Shown: positions 3,031 to 62,353 of the stretch, piece by piece
Layout: every line of letters starts with the position of its first letter
Numbering within the stretch: the stretch's first letter is position 1
NCBI GenBank assembly: GCA_944326425.1
Contig: CALVDX010000001.1
Span: 124,001 to 188,000, forward strand
Origin: Candidatus Gastranaerophilales bacterium
GTDB taxonomy: Bacteria; Cyanobacteriota; Vampirovibrionia; Gastranaerophilales; Gastranaerophilaceae
Direction of reading: 5' to 3'
DNA length: 64,000 nt
Program-made: the position numbers and the translations under genes
Notes under the pieces: generated by a model
Told to the model about the DNA's origin: nothing
Seen by the model: only the letters and a program-made list of their open reading frames with translations
Database searches by the model: none

Positions 3031-3570
3031 TTATTCTCCTAAAAACGGATTGTTTTTGTAAATGTTAATAAAATCCTGATTATATTGGTTCATTCTTATC
3101 AGATAGGTCGTTTTTTCTTCGTCATCCAGTGTGAATTTACCATCGGCCGGCAGACCGCCCTGTTTGTCGCACATTAAAACAAACATGGCATATTCTTCTT
3201 TTGAAATATATCCGTCCGAATTTGTATCTAAAGTGTTACTTGTTAACTTAGAGTTGTAGGTAAGCATTTTTTTTATTAAATTTCTCTCATCATTTGGGGA
3301 GTGATATCTTTGTTTCAGAATTTCATAATTAAGTTCAATATTCCCTTGGATGTATTCTTCCTCCGTTACTTTTCCGTCTTTGTTTTTGTCAAAGAAATCT
3401 AGCATTTTTTCTGAGTAATCAAGATATGCTTGTTTTTGTGCCTCCGGAGTTGTCGTTTTTTTATTAAATATGACAAATTCTCTCTCTTCTAATTCTCTGG
3501 TCGGTTTTTGCGCAAGTTGTAATCTAGCGTTGTGTGCTTTTTGGGGTAAATCTCCGGATATTAATGACAT
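3031..3570 (-). CDS. EF-hand calcium-binding protein
   Basis: The protein has 179 residues and two canonical EF-hand loops: DKNKDGKVTEEE at about 61-72 and DTNSDGYISKEE at about 115-126. Both have acidic residues at positions 1, 3, 5 and 12 and Gly at 6. No signal peptide or membrane segment is visible, so the site of action is unclear. A strong AGGAGAG lies just upstream of the ATG, and the promoter region carries TACTTTATATAT (3598-3609, minus strand), a sequence shared with two other genes here. Calcium binding is well supported; the biological role is unknown. Confidence 0.85.
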   Translation of the reverse strand: MSLISGDLPQKAHNARLQLAQKPTRELEEREFVIFNKKTTTPEAQKQAYLDYSEKMLDFFDKNKDGKVTEEEYIQGNIELNYEILKQRYHSPNDERNLIKKMLTYNSKLTSNTLDTNSDGYISKEEYAMFVLMCDKQGGLPADGKFTLDDEEKTTYLIRMNQYNQDFINIYKNNPFLGE

Positions 3571-32090: not shown

Positions 32091-32196
32091 GTTTAGTTAT
32101 TCCTCAGAATCAGTTGTTGTGGGTATTTCTACCTATTATTTCATGATGCGGTTTTGTTGCAATTGTAAAGAATTGTAAATGTTTTGATAAAATTCC

Positions 32197-32223
32197 TAAA
32201 GTTTTTTTAAATTCTGCCGTAAA
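32197..32223 (+). promoter_or_regulatory. Sigma-28 (FliA)-type promoter
   Basis: TAAAGTTT (32197-32204), 11 nt, GCCGTAAA (32216-32223). This is seven of eight plus six to seven of eight against the FliA consensus TAAAGTTT-N11-GCCGATAA, with the exact spacing. It lies 38 nt before the ATG of the gene at 32262. Confidence 0.75.
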
Positions 32224-32261
32224 CATGGGTACAAAGGGAACGAAGAAAAAGGAAAAACATT

Positions 32262-33242
32262 ATGGGAATGGCATCATCACAAGCAAGATTTTTGCAATTA
32301 ACAGCGAGATTGAACAACACAGAGTTTCAAGGACAACAAATCAACCAACAAAGAACTTTATTGTCCAATGAGTCTTCTCAGGCTTATAATTCTTTGCTCG
32401 GTATGACCGTTCCTACACCTCCCTCTAAAACGGATTATACAAAAACGGTTTATACCTTTGCACAAGGGGCCTATGATTATACTATAGATTCAGTTTACCC
32501 GAATGCTGATAATCAAAATTATACTATTAATTATACAAGAAGCGGTAACCTTGTTGGTATTGTTAATACAAGCACTTCTGCTACTATCAGGCAAGGTACT
32601 AATCCGGACAGCAGTGTATCTGGAGATGCAGTAGACTGGTTAGCTAACGGCTCTCAACTGTATGAGGTTAATGCAAACTTTGTACACGAAGGTAAAACCG
32701 GAGAAGAACTGTTTCAACAAATGTTTAACAATACTTCCGGAGCAGAAATGTCTGATTACTATGTTTACATATCAACAGATGCAAACGGTATTGAATCTTA
32801 TAAATTTATATTGAAAGATGATGTTGAGGCAATCAGTGTATCATCAACAGCTTCAGGACTTGCCGATATTTGGGAGCAAGGTACTGTAAATACAAAAGAA
32901 GCTCTTACCACTGATAGCGGTTCGGTTATTTTTGACACATCAGGCAGAATGACATCTGTTATTATTGATGGTGTTGAATATGTTCTTAATGCAGAAACAA
33001 CAACTGATGACGATGCCTATGAAGATGCATATAATCAATACGAATATGAAAAATATCAATACAACCAATATGTAGCTGAAGTTAATGCCAAAATTTCAAT
33101 TATTCAGCTTCAAGATAAAAAACTTGAACTTCAACTTGAACAACTTGATACTGAAAGAACTACAATCACTACAGAAATTGAAGCTGTACAAAAAGTATTA
33201 ACAGATAACATTGACAGAACTTATAAAGTATTCAACGGCTAG
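32262..33242 (+). CDS. Sigma-28-driven coiled-coil protein of unknown function
   Basis: The 326-residue protein has no signal peptide. It begins MGMASSQARFLQLTARLNN, then FQGQQINQQRTLLSNES, a helix resembling the D0/D1 helices of axial flagellar proteins. The middle is a Thr/Ser/Asn/Asp-rich beta-type domain, and the end is a long coiled coil (KLELQLEQLDTERTTITTEI). The head-to-tail helical layout around a beta domain, plus a FliA-type promoter, suggests a protein exported by the flagellar apparatus or a filament-like structure. GGAAAAAC before the ATG is a weak Shine-Dalgarno. I know no named family for it. Confidence 0.65.
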   Translation: MGMASSQARFLQLTARLNNTEFQGQQINQQRTLLSNESSQAYNSLLGMTVPTPPSKTDYTKTVYTFAQGAYDYTIDSVYPNADNQNYTINYTRSGNLVGIVNTSTSATIRQGTNPDSSVSGDAVDWLANGSQLYEVNANFVHEGKTGEELFQQMFNNTSGAEMSDYYVYISTDANGIESYKFILKDDVEAISVSSTASGLADIWEQGTVNTKEALTTDSGSVIFDTSGRMTSVIIDGVEYVLNAETTTDDDAYEDAYNQYEYEKYQYNQYVAEVNAKISIIQLQDKKLELQLEQLDTERTTITTEIEAVQKVLTDNIDRTYKVFNG

Positions 33243-35149: not shown

Positions 35150-35590
35150 ATGGATATAGAAACTAGCAGGTTCGGTAAAATAACTGTTAATGAGGAAAAA
35201 CTGTTTAACTTTGTTCTTCCGGTAGTAGGCTTTGATGAGTTGTCTAAGTTTGTTTTGCTTGAACATAGTAATGACTCTATGTTTAAATGGCTTCAGTCTG
35301 TTGAAAACCCGTTATTAGCGTTTCCAATAGTTTCTTGTGCAAATCTATCAATGGATTATGTTATTGATTTGCCGGATAGTGCGGTTGAAGCTTTGCAGAT
35401 AGAAAATGTTGATGATTTGCTGGTTATGAATATAGCCTCAATTCCATCTTCTGATCCATCAGGCGCAACTATTAATTTACTGGCTCCGCTTATATTTAAT
35501 ATAAAAAACAAATTGGCAGGACAAATAATTTTATCAGGGTCCGGTTATGAAGTCAGCTGCCCTATATTTGAGAAGGGAGACGCTGAATAA
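35150..35590 (+). CDS. fliW: Flagellar assembly factor FliW
   Basis: The 146-residue protein starts with the family pattern TSRFGKITVNEEKLFNFVLPVVGFDELSKFVLLEH. The mid-section ESVENPLLAF-like FKWLQSVENPLLAFPIV and the late LLAPLIFNIKNKLAGQIIL are also typical. FliW binds flagellin and antagonises CsrA, linking flagellin assembly to translation. It overlaps csrA by 1 nt (TAATG). Although no structural flagellar gene is in this window, the fliW-csrA pair is a strong sign of flagellar regulation. Confidence 0.95.
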   Translation: MDIETSRFGKITVNEEKLFNFVLPVVGFDELSKFVLLEHSNDSMFKWLQSVENPLLAFPIVSCANLSMDYVIDLPDSAVEALQIENVDDLLVMNIASIPSSDPSGATINLLAPLIFNIKNKLAGQIILSGSGYEVSCPIFEKGDAE

Positions 35591-35928
35591 TGCTGGTTAT
35601 TGCAAGAAAAAACGGACAAAAAATTATTATAAATGATAATATCGAAGTAACAGTAATAGAAACAAAACCCGGCTCATGCCGTCTTGCTATAAAGGCTCCG
35701 CTGGAAGTAAAAATTTATCGTGAAGAAGTTTATATGCAAATAAAAATGGCTAACATGGTTGGCCAAAATACTACGGATGATTTGATTGCTCAAGTTGATG
35801 CAATTCTTAAGAAACCCGATGGTAAAGTTAATAAATCTATTGTAAGACATTCTGATGAAGAATTTATTGCGGATGCCAAGCCAAATAAAAGGATTATTAT
35901 AAAGAAAATTAATGAAAACAACTCTTAA
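35590..35928 (+). CDS. csrA: Carbon storage regulator CsrA with extended C-terminus
   Basis: CsrA binds GGA motifs in mRNA leaders and represses translation. Residues 1-55 match (MLVIARKNGQKIIINDNIEV, VRLAIKAP-like CRLAIKAPLEVKIYREEVY). The protein is 112 residues, about 45 longer than usual, with a charged tail ending in KRIIIKKINENNS. The tail could change RNA or FliW binding. It overlaps the next gene by 17 nt and is directly coupled to fliW. Confidence 0.93.
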   Translation: MLVIARKNGQKIIINDNIEVTVIETKPGSCRLAIKAPLEVKIYREEVYMQIKMANMVGQNTTDDLIAQVDAILKKPDGKVNKSIVRHSDEEFIADAKPNKRIIIKKINENNS

Positions 35929-52910: not shown

Positions 52911-54335
52911 TTACCCCTCTTTGAACTGTAAATCCGGATGCCGCGCAGCAAGTGTTTCATCAACCCGTTTTACAGGAGTTGAGTGCGGTGATGCCATTAC
53001 AAATTCAGGTCTTTCTTTTATTTCATCCGCGATTTTAATCATTACATCTATAAAGTTATCTAATACTGCTTTTGATTCCGTTTCTGTCGGCTCAATCATA
53101 ATTGCCTCATGAACAATGAGCGGGAAATACACGGTTGGCGGGTGAATACTGTAGTCCATAAGTCTTTTGGCGATACCTATGGTATTAACCCCCTGTTCTT
53201 TCTGCCAGTCTCCGCTTAAAACAAACTCGTGCATGCAAGGTTCATCATAAGGAAGAAGGTATTTACCTTTTAACTTTTCTTTTATGTAATTTGCGTTAAG
53301 AACGGCATCTCCGCTTGCTTTTTTCAGGTTATCGCCCATCATAAGAATGTAAGCGTAGGCTTTTACAAGAACTCCAAAATTCCCAAAGAATGCTTTAACC
53401 TTGCCTATAGAGTGTTTTAAATTATAATTCCGGTAATATTTTTTACCGTCAAAGTCAATAACCGGCGACGGTAAATATTCTTTTAGTGCTTCTGTTACAC
53501 AAATCGGGCCGGCGCCGGGGCCTCCGCCGCCGTGAGGGGTTGCAAAAGTTTTATGCAGATTTAAGTGAACTACATCAAATCCCATTATGTACGGGTTTGT
53601 ATAACCCATTACCGCATTAAAGTTTGCCCCGTCATAATAAAGCAGGGAGCCGTTATCGTGCATTATTTTTGATATTTCTAACACTTTTTCTTCAAACAGC
53701 CCTAAAGTATTAGGGTTTGTCATCATAATTGCAGCTACATCTTTATCAAGGTGCGCTTTTAGGTCTGCAATATCAACCTGTCCGCGTTCATTGGATTTAA
53801 TTTGTACAATCTCAAACCCGCACATTTTTGCGCTTGCAGGATTTGTTCCGTGTGCGGAATCAGGTACAAGAACTTTTGTCCTTTTTTCGCCTTTTATTTC
53901 AAAGTATTTTTTTATAACCATCATTCCGCTCAATTCTCCGTGAGCACCTGCGCAAGGTTGCAAACTTACAGCCTGCATCCCTGTTATTACTTTGAGTGCT
54001 TCCTGCAGTCTGTACATGAGTTCCAGCGCGCCCTGCGAGTCTTCATCGCTTGAAAGCGGATGAAGGTTTGTAAAACCTTCCAGTGATGCCAGAAATTCAT
54101 TAACCTTCGGGTTGTACTTCATTGTGCAGGACCCCAGCGGATAGAACCCTTTTTCTATACAAAAATTCCTGTCAGAGAGTTCTTTATAGTGCCTCATAAC
54201 TTCAAGTTCACTAAGCTGCGGCAAACCAATATTTCCCTGTCTTAAAAACTTGGATGAGATACAATCACAGGACTTAGTTTCCGACTCCAGCAATATCCCG
54301 TTAACTCCGCTGCTTTTTTCAAAAATAGTTTTCAT
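52911..54335 (-). CDS. gcvPB: Glycine dehydrogenase (decarboxylating) subunit 2
   Basis: The 474-residue PLP enzyme is the P2 subunit of the glycine cleavage system. The PLP Lys is in LNLHKTFATPHGGGGPGAG at about residue 261, with GSCTMKYNPK, AGAHGELSGM and ADSAHGTNPAS-like PDSAHGTNPASAKMCG. The partner gcvPA and the other gcv genes are not here. It overlaps the upstream sigma-factor gene by 4 nt (ATGA), an unusual pairing. Confidence 0.95.
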   Translation of the reverse strand: MKTIFEKSSGVNGILLESETKSCDCISSKFLRQGNIGLPQLSELEVMRHYKELSDRNFCIEKGFYPLGSCTMKYNPKVNEFLASLEGFTNLHPLSSDEDSQGALELMYRLQEALKVITGMQAVSLQPCAGAHGELSGMMVIKKYFEIKGEKRTKVLVPDSAHGTNPASAKMCGFEIVQIKSNERGQVDIADLKAHLDKDVAAIMMTNPNTLGLFEEKVLEISKIMHDNGSLLYYDGANFNAVMGYTNPYIMGFDVVHLNLHKTFATPHGGGGPGAGPICVTEALKEYLPSPVIDFDGKKYYRNYNLKHSIGKVKAFFGNFGVLVKAYAYILMMGDNLKKASGDAVLNANYIKEKLKGKYLLPYDEPCMHEFVLSGDWQKEQGVNTIGIAKRLMDYSIHPPTVYFPLIVHEAIMIEPTETESKAVLDNFIDVMIKIADEIKERPEFVMASPHSTPVKRVDETLAARHPDLQFKEG

Positions 54336-54925
54336 TCACACTCCTGTTTTATTAGTTCCTTCTTTATTTTTTCCAGTGCGTACTGGATAATTCTTGAAAT
54401 ACGTGATTGTGAAAGGTTAAACTCGGATGATATGTCTTTGAGCTTTTTGTTATAAAAAAACTTAGCTTTAATAATTTCTCGTTCTTTTTCAGGCAGATCA
54501 TTTATTGCAGACTCAATACAACGACGAATTTCTGCCATTTGTGCGTGGGCTTCCGGTGAGGCTGACGTGTCCTTTAAAACAACAGGAGTGTCATTGTCAC
54601 TTACATCATCAATTGATAAAATCGGGGTGTAATGCGGTGCTGCGTTTTCCTGGGTTTTCAAAAGATACCACTTATACCGCCGGCGGACTTCGTTTCTTAT
54701 GGCCCACTTAATTGCGTTTGATAAGTATGCGTTATTAAAAAACGTATTTGTACGTGCATTTTTAAATAAATAGTAAACCGTGTAGTTTCCAACATTTACA
54801 ACTTCATTAAATTCAATCAAACCGAGCGAAGAGAATTTCTTGAATTCTACTTTGCTTATTGTTTCAATCAGCTCTTTATATTGTGATATGTCTATTTTCT
54901 TTTTGTTATCAATAGCTTCGCCCAT
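54332..54925 (-). CDS. Sigma-70 family factor, FliA-like
   Basis: The 197-residue protein has a region 2-like part (LIEFNEVVNVGNYTVYYLF, then YLSNAIKWAIRNEVRRRYKW) and a clear region 4 (LPEKEREIIKAKFFYNKKLK, then FNLSQSRISRIIQYALEKIK). The short linker and region 4 wording resemble sigma-28/FliA/WhiG. Region 3 is hard to see, so it could also be another group-3/4 factor. It starts 6 nt after TATGAT and is probably leaderless. It is co-translated with gcvPB. Two FliA-type promoters in this window may be its targets. Confidence 0.8.
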   Translation of the reverse strand: MGEAIDNKKKIDISQYKELIETISKVEFKKFSSLGLIEFNEVVNVGNYTVYYLFKNARTNTFFNNAYLSNAIKWAIRNEVRRRYKWYLLKTQENAAPHYTPILSIDDVSDNDTPVVLKDTSASPEAHAQMAEIRRCIESAINDLPEKEREIIKAKFFYNKKLKDISSEFNLSQSRISRIIQYALEKIKKELIKQECE

Positions 54926-56101: not shown

Positions 56102-57235
56102 TCAGGTATTATGTAGATTTAGAGATTCTAACAATTTTTTTGTGAGTTCATCATTTTGTTTTTTACTTTTCTTTAGGTTATATTCATAGTTTTTAGGCAA
56201 AGCATTTTTGTTAAATTCTTTTTCTGTTTTATTATCTTTAAATGAAAATGTTATATCCATAACTTCTTCTGTAAAAACTTTCCAAGGCACTTTTATATCA
56301 TAATCTGAATAATGTGGGTCTGTTAAAATTACTTCTTTTCCATAATTAACAGCCTTTATAGAGTATGCATGTCCACCATGTAGATAGTTTTTCGTTGCTT
56401 TATCACCATAATCAGTGAATGGTGTAAAAGCGCACCAACCTGAAATATTTGTCTTATGTTGAGCTAAATATTTAAGCATATTATCTACATCTTTTCCCGC
56501 AGTAGATTGTTCCTTCATATGAGAGATATAAACTTTTTTTGTTTTTATACCTAACAATTCCGAAATTGGATATTGGTCAAATTTGTCTGTTGTTATTCCT
56601 GCAAAAATATATGAACGATAGTTTCCTCCCATTTCTTGTATATAATCATCGTCTTCTTTTCTAGCGGCTAAACCCTGTTTTACAATTTCTTTAAATGTTA
56701 TTTCTGTCGCTAATTCAAAGGCAATCATGTCATCATCGCCATCAGAATAATTGCCGCTTTTTCTTGCTTGCTCTATTTGATATGCTGTAATATGAATTTC
56801 TTTTTGTTCTAATGGTGAACCTTTAAATATAATCGTAACACCACTACTACCGTCTTCATCAGGAATTATAGCATTATAAATTGCATTTCTCCCCCATTCT
56901 GTTTGACTTAATGCATTAATATCAGATAGCAGCCAACAATCCCCTTGTGTCATTGGTTGTTTTGTTGGTTCAATTCTTCTGTTAAATCTTGTTTCTGGTT
57001 GTGTTCTAGTAAAGTTTCCTCCCAGGATTTCGGTTATATCAATATCATTAGTTTTAGCAGGTTTGAATAATTGTTCATTATCTATTAAAAATAAACTCAC
57101 ACCTGATTTAATTTTTTTTGCAACTTCAAATGTAATAGCTCCATCGTTTAACATCTCTTCTACAATTGCATCTCTTGAGTAGAGCGGGTATTTTTGTTGA
57201 TATTTATTGTATAATGATTGAATTCCATCGAACAT
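56102..57235 (-). CDS. Calpain-family (C2-like) cysteine protease
   Basis: The 377-residue protein has the calpain catalytic Cys100 in TQGDCWLLSDINAL and His289 in LHGGHAYSIKAV. The usual Asn position reads LTDPHYSD, with an Asp306 instead of Asn. A helical N-terminal part precedes the domain. No signal peptide is visible. AAGAGG lies 7 nt before the ATG. It sits next to tRNA-Lys and an AsmA-like fragment, possibly from transfer. Calpain-like enzymes cut proteins at few sites. Confidence 0.85.
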   Translation of the reverse strand: MFDGIQSLYNKYQQKYPLYSRDAIVEEMLNDGAITFEVAKKIKSGVSLFLIDNEQLFKPAKTNDIDITEILGGNFTRTQPETRFNRRIEPTKQPMTQGDCWLLSDINALSQTEWGRNAIYNAIIPDEDGSSGVTIIFKGSPLEQKEIHITAYQIEQARKSGNYSDGDDDMIAFELATEITFKEIVKQGLAARKEDDDYIQEMGGNYRSYIFAGITTDKFDQYPISELLGIKTKKVYISHMKEQSTAGKDVDNMLKYLAQHKTNISGWCAFTPFTDYGDKATKNYLHGGHAYSIKAVNYGKEVILTDPHYSDYDIKVPWKVFTEEVMDITFSFKDNKTEKEFNKNALPKNYEYNLKKSKKQNDELTKKLLESLNLHNT

Positions 57236-57328
57236 GTCAAAACCTCTTATCTTACAGTTTATATATCGTCTAAAATTTTTTAATCTTTAATTAGTTTGAA
57301 TAAACTGTTACAAATCTTTACATACAAT

Positions 57329-61801: not shown

Positions 61802-62353
61802 TTATTCTTCGTCTGACGGATATTTATAATCCATCATACTGCCTTCAAATTCCGGCAGGTCATCGGTATAAAGGGACATTTGGCTTATATTTCTGTTAAG
61901 ATCCTCTACCTTTTGTTTATATATGTCAGACTTAATATTATATGATTGTATTTCGGCCGTAGTAACACGGTTATCATTGTTAGCATCTATTTCGTCAAAA
62001 TGTGCAAGTACTGTTTCCTGCAGTGAAGAGGAAAGCCCCGCGGAACTGCCCAGGGTCGTAATTTGTTCTCTGGTAAGTCCTTGTGCAGAAATAGTATTCA
62101 TATATGACTGAATATCAGAAGCCGACAGAACTCCGTCATTATCCTTGTCAATACTTGAAAAATTAGTCATCATATACGATGCAAATGTGGCTCCGTAGTT
62201 GTTAGCAAGAACAGTTGAATTACTCATCGCAGAAGTAAGGTTTTCTAAAGTAAGTCCTTCTTCTTTGTATAGCCCTGTAAGAAAGTTATAAGAGCTTGCT
62301 AATCCGGAGTTTACTGCGGTATAGAGTGACGTGCCGTTTAAATACTTAGACAT
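61802..62353 (-). CDS. EF-hand calcium-binding protein
   Basis: The 183-residue protein has two EF-hand loops, DKDNDGVLSASD (about 69-80) and DANNDNRVTTAE (about 123-134); the second has Asn at position 6 instead of Gly. No signal peptide. A Ser/Thr/Asn-rich N-terminus and an acidic C-terminal tail are present. AAGGAG lies before the ATG. It is the second EF-hand protein of this window, and the pair at 3031-3570 and here suggests calcium signalling or buffering. Confidence 0.85.
   Translation of the reverse strand: MSKYLNGTSLYTAVNSGLASSYNFLTGLYKEEGLTLENLTSAMSNSTVLANNYGATFASYMMTNFSSIDKDNDGVLSASDIQSYMNTISAQGLTREQITTLGSSAGLSSSLQETVLAHFDEIDANNDNRVTTAEIQSYNIKSDIYKQKVEDLNRNISQMSLYTDDLPEFEGSMMDYKYPSDEE

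Follow-up and report, generated by a model that had tools for sequence, protein, structure and literature searches.

A putative late, FliA-controlled axial component of a second flagellar-type export system in Gastranaerophilales

The gene located at positions 32262 to 33242 of the window is preceded by a sigma-28-type promoter that is conserved upstream of its homologues, and its 326-residue product belongs to a family, designated SQAR, that persists in Gastranaerophilales genomes encoding neither flagellin nor a flagellar-type FlhA. On balance, we favor the conclusion that this product is a late, FliA-controlled, axial-type protein of a second (FlhA2) export system found across the Gastranaerophilales. 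These cyanobacteria-related gut bacteria are common and mostly uncultured. The window, i.e., the whole stretch of DNA that was analyzed, spans 64 kb (C1:124001-188000) of a 2.01-Mb genome assembled in 40 contigs (G000, referred to below as the source genome). The comparison set comprised 99 genomes, mostly drafts and in many cases metagenome bins, so that single absences in this set are weak evidence. The features of the window are listed in Table 1.

Table 1. Positions of the features of the 64-kb window discussed in the text
Feature	Positions	Strand	Basis
HLR1-like direct repeat TGTAAAGAATTGTAA, 33 bp 5' of the -35 box	32164..32178	+	Zero mismatches in composite pattern
Sigma-28 (FliA) type promoter TAAAGTTT-N11-GCCGTAAA	32197..32223	+	Pattern scans of window, genome, and homologues
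Late-class protein of the MGM(A/S)xxQARxL (SQAR) family, 326 aa	32262..33242	+	Homologue comparison
N-terminal helix (residues 2-46), the best-conserved block	32265..32399	+	AlphaFold, alignment
Beta-rich variable middle, residues 60-248	32439..33005	+	AlphaFold
C-terminal helix, 76 residues, 250-325	33009..33236	+	AlphaFold
Calpain-like cysteine protease candidate, 377 aa, QGDCWLL motif, no Sec signal	56102..57235	-	Peptidase_C2, sub-threshold
Second composite promoter: TGTAA repeat, 18 bp, TAAAG-N14-GACGATA	57261..57322	-	Located before gene 56102-57235

Sigma-28 promoter, upstream operator, and regulon

The boxes of the promoter (32197-32204 and 32216-32223) are followed, after 38 bp, by the ATG at 32262 and provided the sole zero-mismatch match to the pattern within the window. 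Allowing up to three mismatches, the window contained 6 matches versus 1.9 expected. Genome-wide, the pattern TAAAGNNTN{10,12}GCCGNNA gave 45 matches in the source genome versus 6 for the reversed control. The spacer was of 11 bp in 29 of the 31 strong sites of that genome, and 23 of the 31 were located at most 70 bp upstream of a plausible start with a ribosome-binding site. The 32197-32223 promoter displays the -35 TAAA(G) and -10 GCCGATAA-like boxes, separated by approximately 11 bp, by which the FliA regulon was defined. In other genomes, a perfect TAAAG-N13-15-GCCG core was present upstream of 40 of 77 homologues and a one-mismatch core upstream of a further 28 (0.0 and 2.3 expected, respectively, from mononucleotide shuffles of AT-rich DNA). 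Cores with at most one mismatch were thus found in 68 of the 77 upstream regions, usually 55 to 75 bp 5' of the start. The preliminary description had reported a near-consensus sigma-28 promoter and had suggested a genome scan for further TAAAG/GCCG promoters; the scan gave the 45 matches mentioned above, and the promoter proved to be real and stronger than claimed, with no other perfect match present in the window and with conservation before homologues.

The reverse complement of the direct repeat found upstream of the -35 box fits (G/T)TTACAWW-N2-(G/T)TTACAWW. HLR1, at which the OmpR-type regulator RpaB acts in cyanobacteria, consists of two (G/T)TTACA(T/A)(T/A) repeats with 2 nt between them (PMC9241938). 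In comparison to the cyanobacterial element, the Gastranaerophilales copy is reversed and is fixed 33 bp before the sigma-28 box. TGTAA-N5-TGTAA starts exactly 33 bp before TAAAG in 15 of the 31 strong sites of the source genome, in comparison to 0.02 sites expected from shuffles to contain this repeat anywhere within 70 bp upstream. Before homologues (n = 68), 16 perfect and 11 one-mismatch elements were detected, mostly at -33 or -34 (0.015 and 0.74 expected from shuffles). The fixed spacing and the conservation across genomes hold independently of these shuffle expectations. The repeat at 32164-32178 is a candidate activator site, and the cognate regulator, to judge from the operator, is probably of the OmpR/RpaB type. 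At several other sites of the source genome (L021-L024, L045, and L066), GATATGATATGATATGATGTGGTGGGGTGGGC-like repeats abut TAAAG and replace the TGTAA element, forming a second class of sigma-28 promoters.

The sigma-28 set of the source genome comprises dozens of genes, mostly coding for proteins of no named kind, among them many diverse signal-less proteins, including EF-hand and DUF2963/RHS-like proteins. The second composite promoter of the window has zero mismatches in the repeat and in TAAAG and one mismatch in GCCG, and the gene that follows it is probably a second member of the regulon within this window. The product of this gene scored 15.7 bits against Peptidase_C2, below the cut-off of 23.8, and had no relative in a PDB sequence search. 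Small EF-hand proteins lacking an evident Sec signal are also encoded at window positions 61802-62353 and 3031-3570 (-); they are of a similar type to the EF-hand proteins found in the sigma-28 set (L027 and L028). Several contigs of the source genome (C5, C7, C16, C18, C21, C25, and C28) end at sigma-28 promoters or flagellin genes, and the assembly may have broken at these positions because late genes are repeated.

The presumed cognate sigma factor is encoded outside the window. The preliminary description had placed a FliA-like sigma factor at 54332-54925 and fliW-csrA at 35150-35928. Pfam confirmed fliW-csrA; the sigma factor is not FliA, with 50 bits against TIGR02479 (FliA_WhiG) for a cut-off of 190. 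The genome does encode FliA, on another contig (C19:4311-5159; 233.7 bits, above the TIGR02479 cut-off of 189.6). The transcription logic of the SQAR gene, i.e., a FliA-type promoter within a regulon, is well supported by conservation at the sequence level, and we infer that FliA occupies the 32197-32223 promoter.

Conservation and predicted structure of the SQAR protein

The source genome encodes at least five SQAR paralogues, three preceded by the sigma-28 core and two, on contigs C5 and C4, devoid of it. The closest homologue of the 326-residue protein displays 80% identity, and nearly all homologues originate from assemblies labeled 'Candidatus Gastranaerophilales / Melainabacteria'. An alignment of the protein with 75 homologues revealed invariant residues at both ends and a variable middle, the length of which differs strongly between paralogues. 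Invariant positions of the N-terminal block are M1, G2, Q7, A8, R9, E21, Q25, Q26, R31, and L34, and the C-terminal helix contains the conserved residues D285, L288, L292, and E305. The same alignment was used as the input for AlphaFold, which returned a model with a mean pLDDT of 93.2. The modeled succession of a helix, a beta-rich middle, and a second helix is the architecture of flagellar axial proteins. Long helices had been proposed at both termini around a Thr/Ser/Asn-rich middle; the helices are found in the model, in which the middle is beta-rich. Inspection of the N terminus bore out the proposed absence of a Sec signal, since no hydrophobic Sec-type segment is present.

Searches against Pfam and NCBIfam returned only sub-threshold noise and no named family for this protein, and a PDB sequence search revealed no meaningful relative. 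Comparison with the source genome's own flagellins by hhalign was null (probability, 0.1%). With the model as the query, Foldseek returned nothing below 1e-3 in the PDB. The best match, the Salmonella cap-filament complex (E value, 0.02; probability, 0.33), and the match at rank 7, the Pseudomonas flagellin FliC (E value, 0.23), are both below significance; flagellar matches at these two ranks are suggestive at most. The structural comparison with axial proteins that had been proposed thus gave an axial-like predicted plan, rather than a structure unlike axial proteins, but no significant match to any of them.

The SQAR protein resembles flagellin, FlgL, FlgK, and FliD by its long terminal helices, its variable beta-rich middle, the absence of a Sec signal, and the sigma-28 promoter of its gene. 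Unlike these proteins, it has no Pfam or NCBIfam match and no significant fold match, its profile is null against the flagellins of its own genome, and its family is kept in the absence of flagella. Plasmid sequences searched for the SQAR protein contained no match. The single match in a search of phages covered 44 residues of the N terminus and was to a Microcystis phage record (MW495066.1:132602-132733); the N-terminal 40 to 70 residues of the family also occur in eight viral contigs (IMG/VR loci L294-L301).

Persistence in flagellum-less genomes and the FlhA2 system

Flagellin was absent from 33 Gastranaerophilales genomes among the 99 examined, and none of these 33 genomes encodes a flagellar-type FlhA. 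All 33 contain the SQAR family, which is consequently not confined to genomes with a flagellum, and all 33 contain a FliA orthologue, as do 93 of the 99 relatives in total. Sigma-28 sites persist in the same 33 genomes (223 versus 24 for the control, an approximately ninefold excess summed over genomes), and the perfect core was directly read before SQAR family members in four flagellum-less genomes (G007, G026, G033, and G052). The SQAR protein had been proposed to be a late flagellar export substrate or to be otherwise associated with the flagellum. The sigma-28 promoter and the axial-like plan on which this proposal was based stand, but the tie to the flagellum is not supported, since the family, FliA, and the sigma-28 sites persist in the absence of flagellin and flagellar FlhA.

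The source genome itself encodes a flagellar FlhA and contains eight flagellin-N loci. No sigma-28 motif was found within 200 bp upstream of its flagellin genes, and the flagellins were for this reason rejected as members of the same regulon. Two of the flagellin loci (L048 and L049) have TTGTAAACTTTTGTAA upstream, without the sigma-28 core, which suggests, from the sequence motif, a shared regulator. The regulon resembles the FliA class III regulon of flagellated bacteria in having the same -35 and -10 boxes, the same spacing, and a sigma factor of the FliA/WhiG family. It differs from the classical regulon in that the flagellin genes of the source genome are outside the set, the members are mostly of no known kind, FliA is kept in flagellum-less Gastranaerophilales, and an additional HLR1-like operator is present at -33. 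A FliA promoter in Gastranaerophilales cannot, therefore, be taken as a sign of a flagellar function.

Phylogenetic analysis of FlhA resolved two clades with full support, one flagellar and the other designated FlhA2. FlhA2 is spread through the class, and families f11 and f12, which lack flagellin, have no other FlhA. Nearly all of the 33 flagellin-less genomes encode this second export system (FliE-FliF-FliH-FlhA2). The operon codes for FliE-, FliF-, and FliH-like proteins and for a protein of approximately 340 residues at the position where FliG might stand; in the basal family f7, it additionally codes for FlgF/G-like, FlgG, FlgB, and FlgC proteins, a lytic transglycosylase, and FliI. The FlhA2 operons that were read contain neither a recognizable FliG nor a secretin. 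FlhA2 of G012 scored closer to FlhA (706 bits) than to SctV (595 bits), both scores being under the cut-off.

As a flagellum-related core without a flagellar filament, the FlhA2 system is similar to nonflagellar type III secretion systems, including the secretin-less system of the Myxococcales (Abby and Rocha 2012; PMC3459982). The latter systems lack FlgBCDEK and FliEG (PMC3459982), whereas the FlhA2 system keeps FliE and, in family f7, also FlgB, FlgC, FlgG, and the transglycosylase. Unlike in nonflagellar type III systems, FlhA2 scores nearer to FlhA than to SctV, at the sub-threshold values given above. The literature that was searched contained nothing relevant on a type III system in Gastranaerophilales; in earlier genome papers, the flagella of many of these bacteria were described as incomplete or decaying (PMC4040986, PMC3787301).

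FlhA2 and FliF2 are absent from the assembly of the source genome. The sequences flanking the FlhA2 locus in a congener (G004) correspond, in this assembly, to the termini of contigs C7 and C30. Since each flank stops at the end of a contig, the absence is most likely an assembly gap, and it is doubtful that the second system has truly been lost. A stand-alone gene for a soluble 489-residue protein containing the FlhA cytoplasmic domain alone (FHIPEP 321-656) is located approximately 12 kb before the window (L091:7079-8548, corresponding to G000:C1:111078-112547), and similar proteins of approximately 500 residues are encoded by several relatives.

The SQAR family was found in all sampled Gastranaerophilales except G074 and in families f9 and f14 and was absent from f8 and f10 to f13, a distribution that matches one FlhA2 subclade. 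This co-occurrence, which in part reflects shared ancestry, has three exceptions, namely, G050, which has kept weak SQAR matches without FlhA2, G074, and the incomplete genome G036. The genes are also linked: in five flagellum-less genomes (G012, G013, G028, G040, and G043), a SQAR member and the FlhA2 operon are no more than approximately 12 kb apart. Near FlhA2, a SQAR gene leads a four-gene cassette coding for the family member and for proteins of approximately 271, 90, and approximately 108 residues, the three small genes being conserved; the source genome contains the same cassette on contig C5. Most of the cassette members closest to FlhA2 have no sigma-28 core, which assigns the 32262-33242 protein to a late class whose genes are dispersed. 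A sigma-28 site is present in G002 upstream of a gene that diverges from the FlhA2 operon. Judged from gene content and gene order, the persistence and the linkage are indicative of a second export apparatus of the flagellar type, encoded outside the window.

Proposed function and alternative explanations

We propose that FliA, encoded elsewhere in the genome, would transcribe the SQAR gene late from the composite promoter, aided by a regulator, probably of the OmpR/RpaB type, at the HLR1-like operator located 33 bp upstream. The conserved N-terminal helix of the signal-less protein would be recognized for export, and the protein would be exported unfolded, most likely via FliE2-FliF2-FliH2-FlhA2. 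Outside the inner membrane, the terminal helices would pack as in flagellin and hook proteins, carrying the variable beta domain, and the packed protein would form a filament, a tip, or a surface layer. Export, the choice of the apparatus, and polymerization are steps that we infer. The flagellar gate of the source genome may also export the SQAR protein, because this genome also has a flagellum.

It is unlikely that the protein is instead a late substrate of an ordinary flagellum, i.e., a hook-associated, cap, or filament-decorating protein exported via flagellar FlhA under FliA. Such a role would fit the FliA promoter, the axial helix plan, the flagellar FlhA and eight flagellin-N loci of the source genome, and the weak top Foldseek match to a flagellar cap-filament complex. 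However, the family, FliA, and the motif are kept in the 33 genomes lacking both flagellin and flagellar FlhA, the flagellin genes of the source genome lie outside the regulon, and no sequence relation to flagellins was detected.

Two further explanations concern the destination of the protein. We see rather little chance that it is a secreted effector or translocator of the second system, acting on or inserting into a neighboring cell. It is more typically the assembled axial proteins that have helical termini and conserved ends with a variable middle, and several genomes keep a SQAR paralogue near the apparatus, within a fixed cassette, even though the many paralogues per genome, their variable middle, and a regulon of diverse signal-less proteins (EF-hand, DUF2963/RHS-like, and the calpain-like candidate of the window) would be expected of effectors. 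Many cytoplasmic proteins likewise contain long helices, and the SQAR protein might be a merely coregulated coiled-coil protein of the cytoplasm or inner membrane that is never exported; the FliA regulation, the helix-beta-helix plan, and the confinement of the family to genomes of the FlhA2 subclade, save for a few divergent or incomplete cases, make this quite improbable.

Our preferred reading, that of a late axial-type protein of the FlhA2 system, can be tentatively extended. It is possible that the second machine of the gut Vampirovibrionia is an independently derived flagellum-type machine with its own rod, to which FliA, the HLR1/RpaB-type operator, and a large set of signal-less late proteins have been reassigned, the SQAR family forming its external filament or tip. 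If so, the 'incomplete flagella' of earlier papers would be a complete, conserved, and different machine. If the leftover genes form a working export system with a dedicated FliA regulon, they would add a further case in which a flagellum has become a secretion machine, and the regulon would identify proteins that Gastranaerophilales may place in the gut, either on their surface or beyond it.
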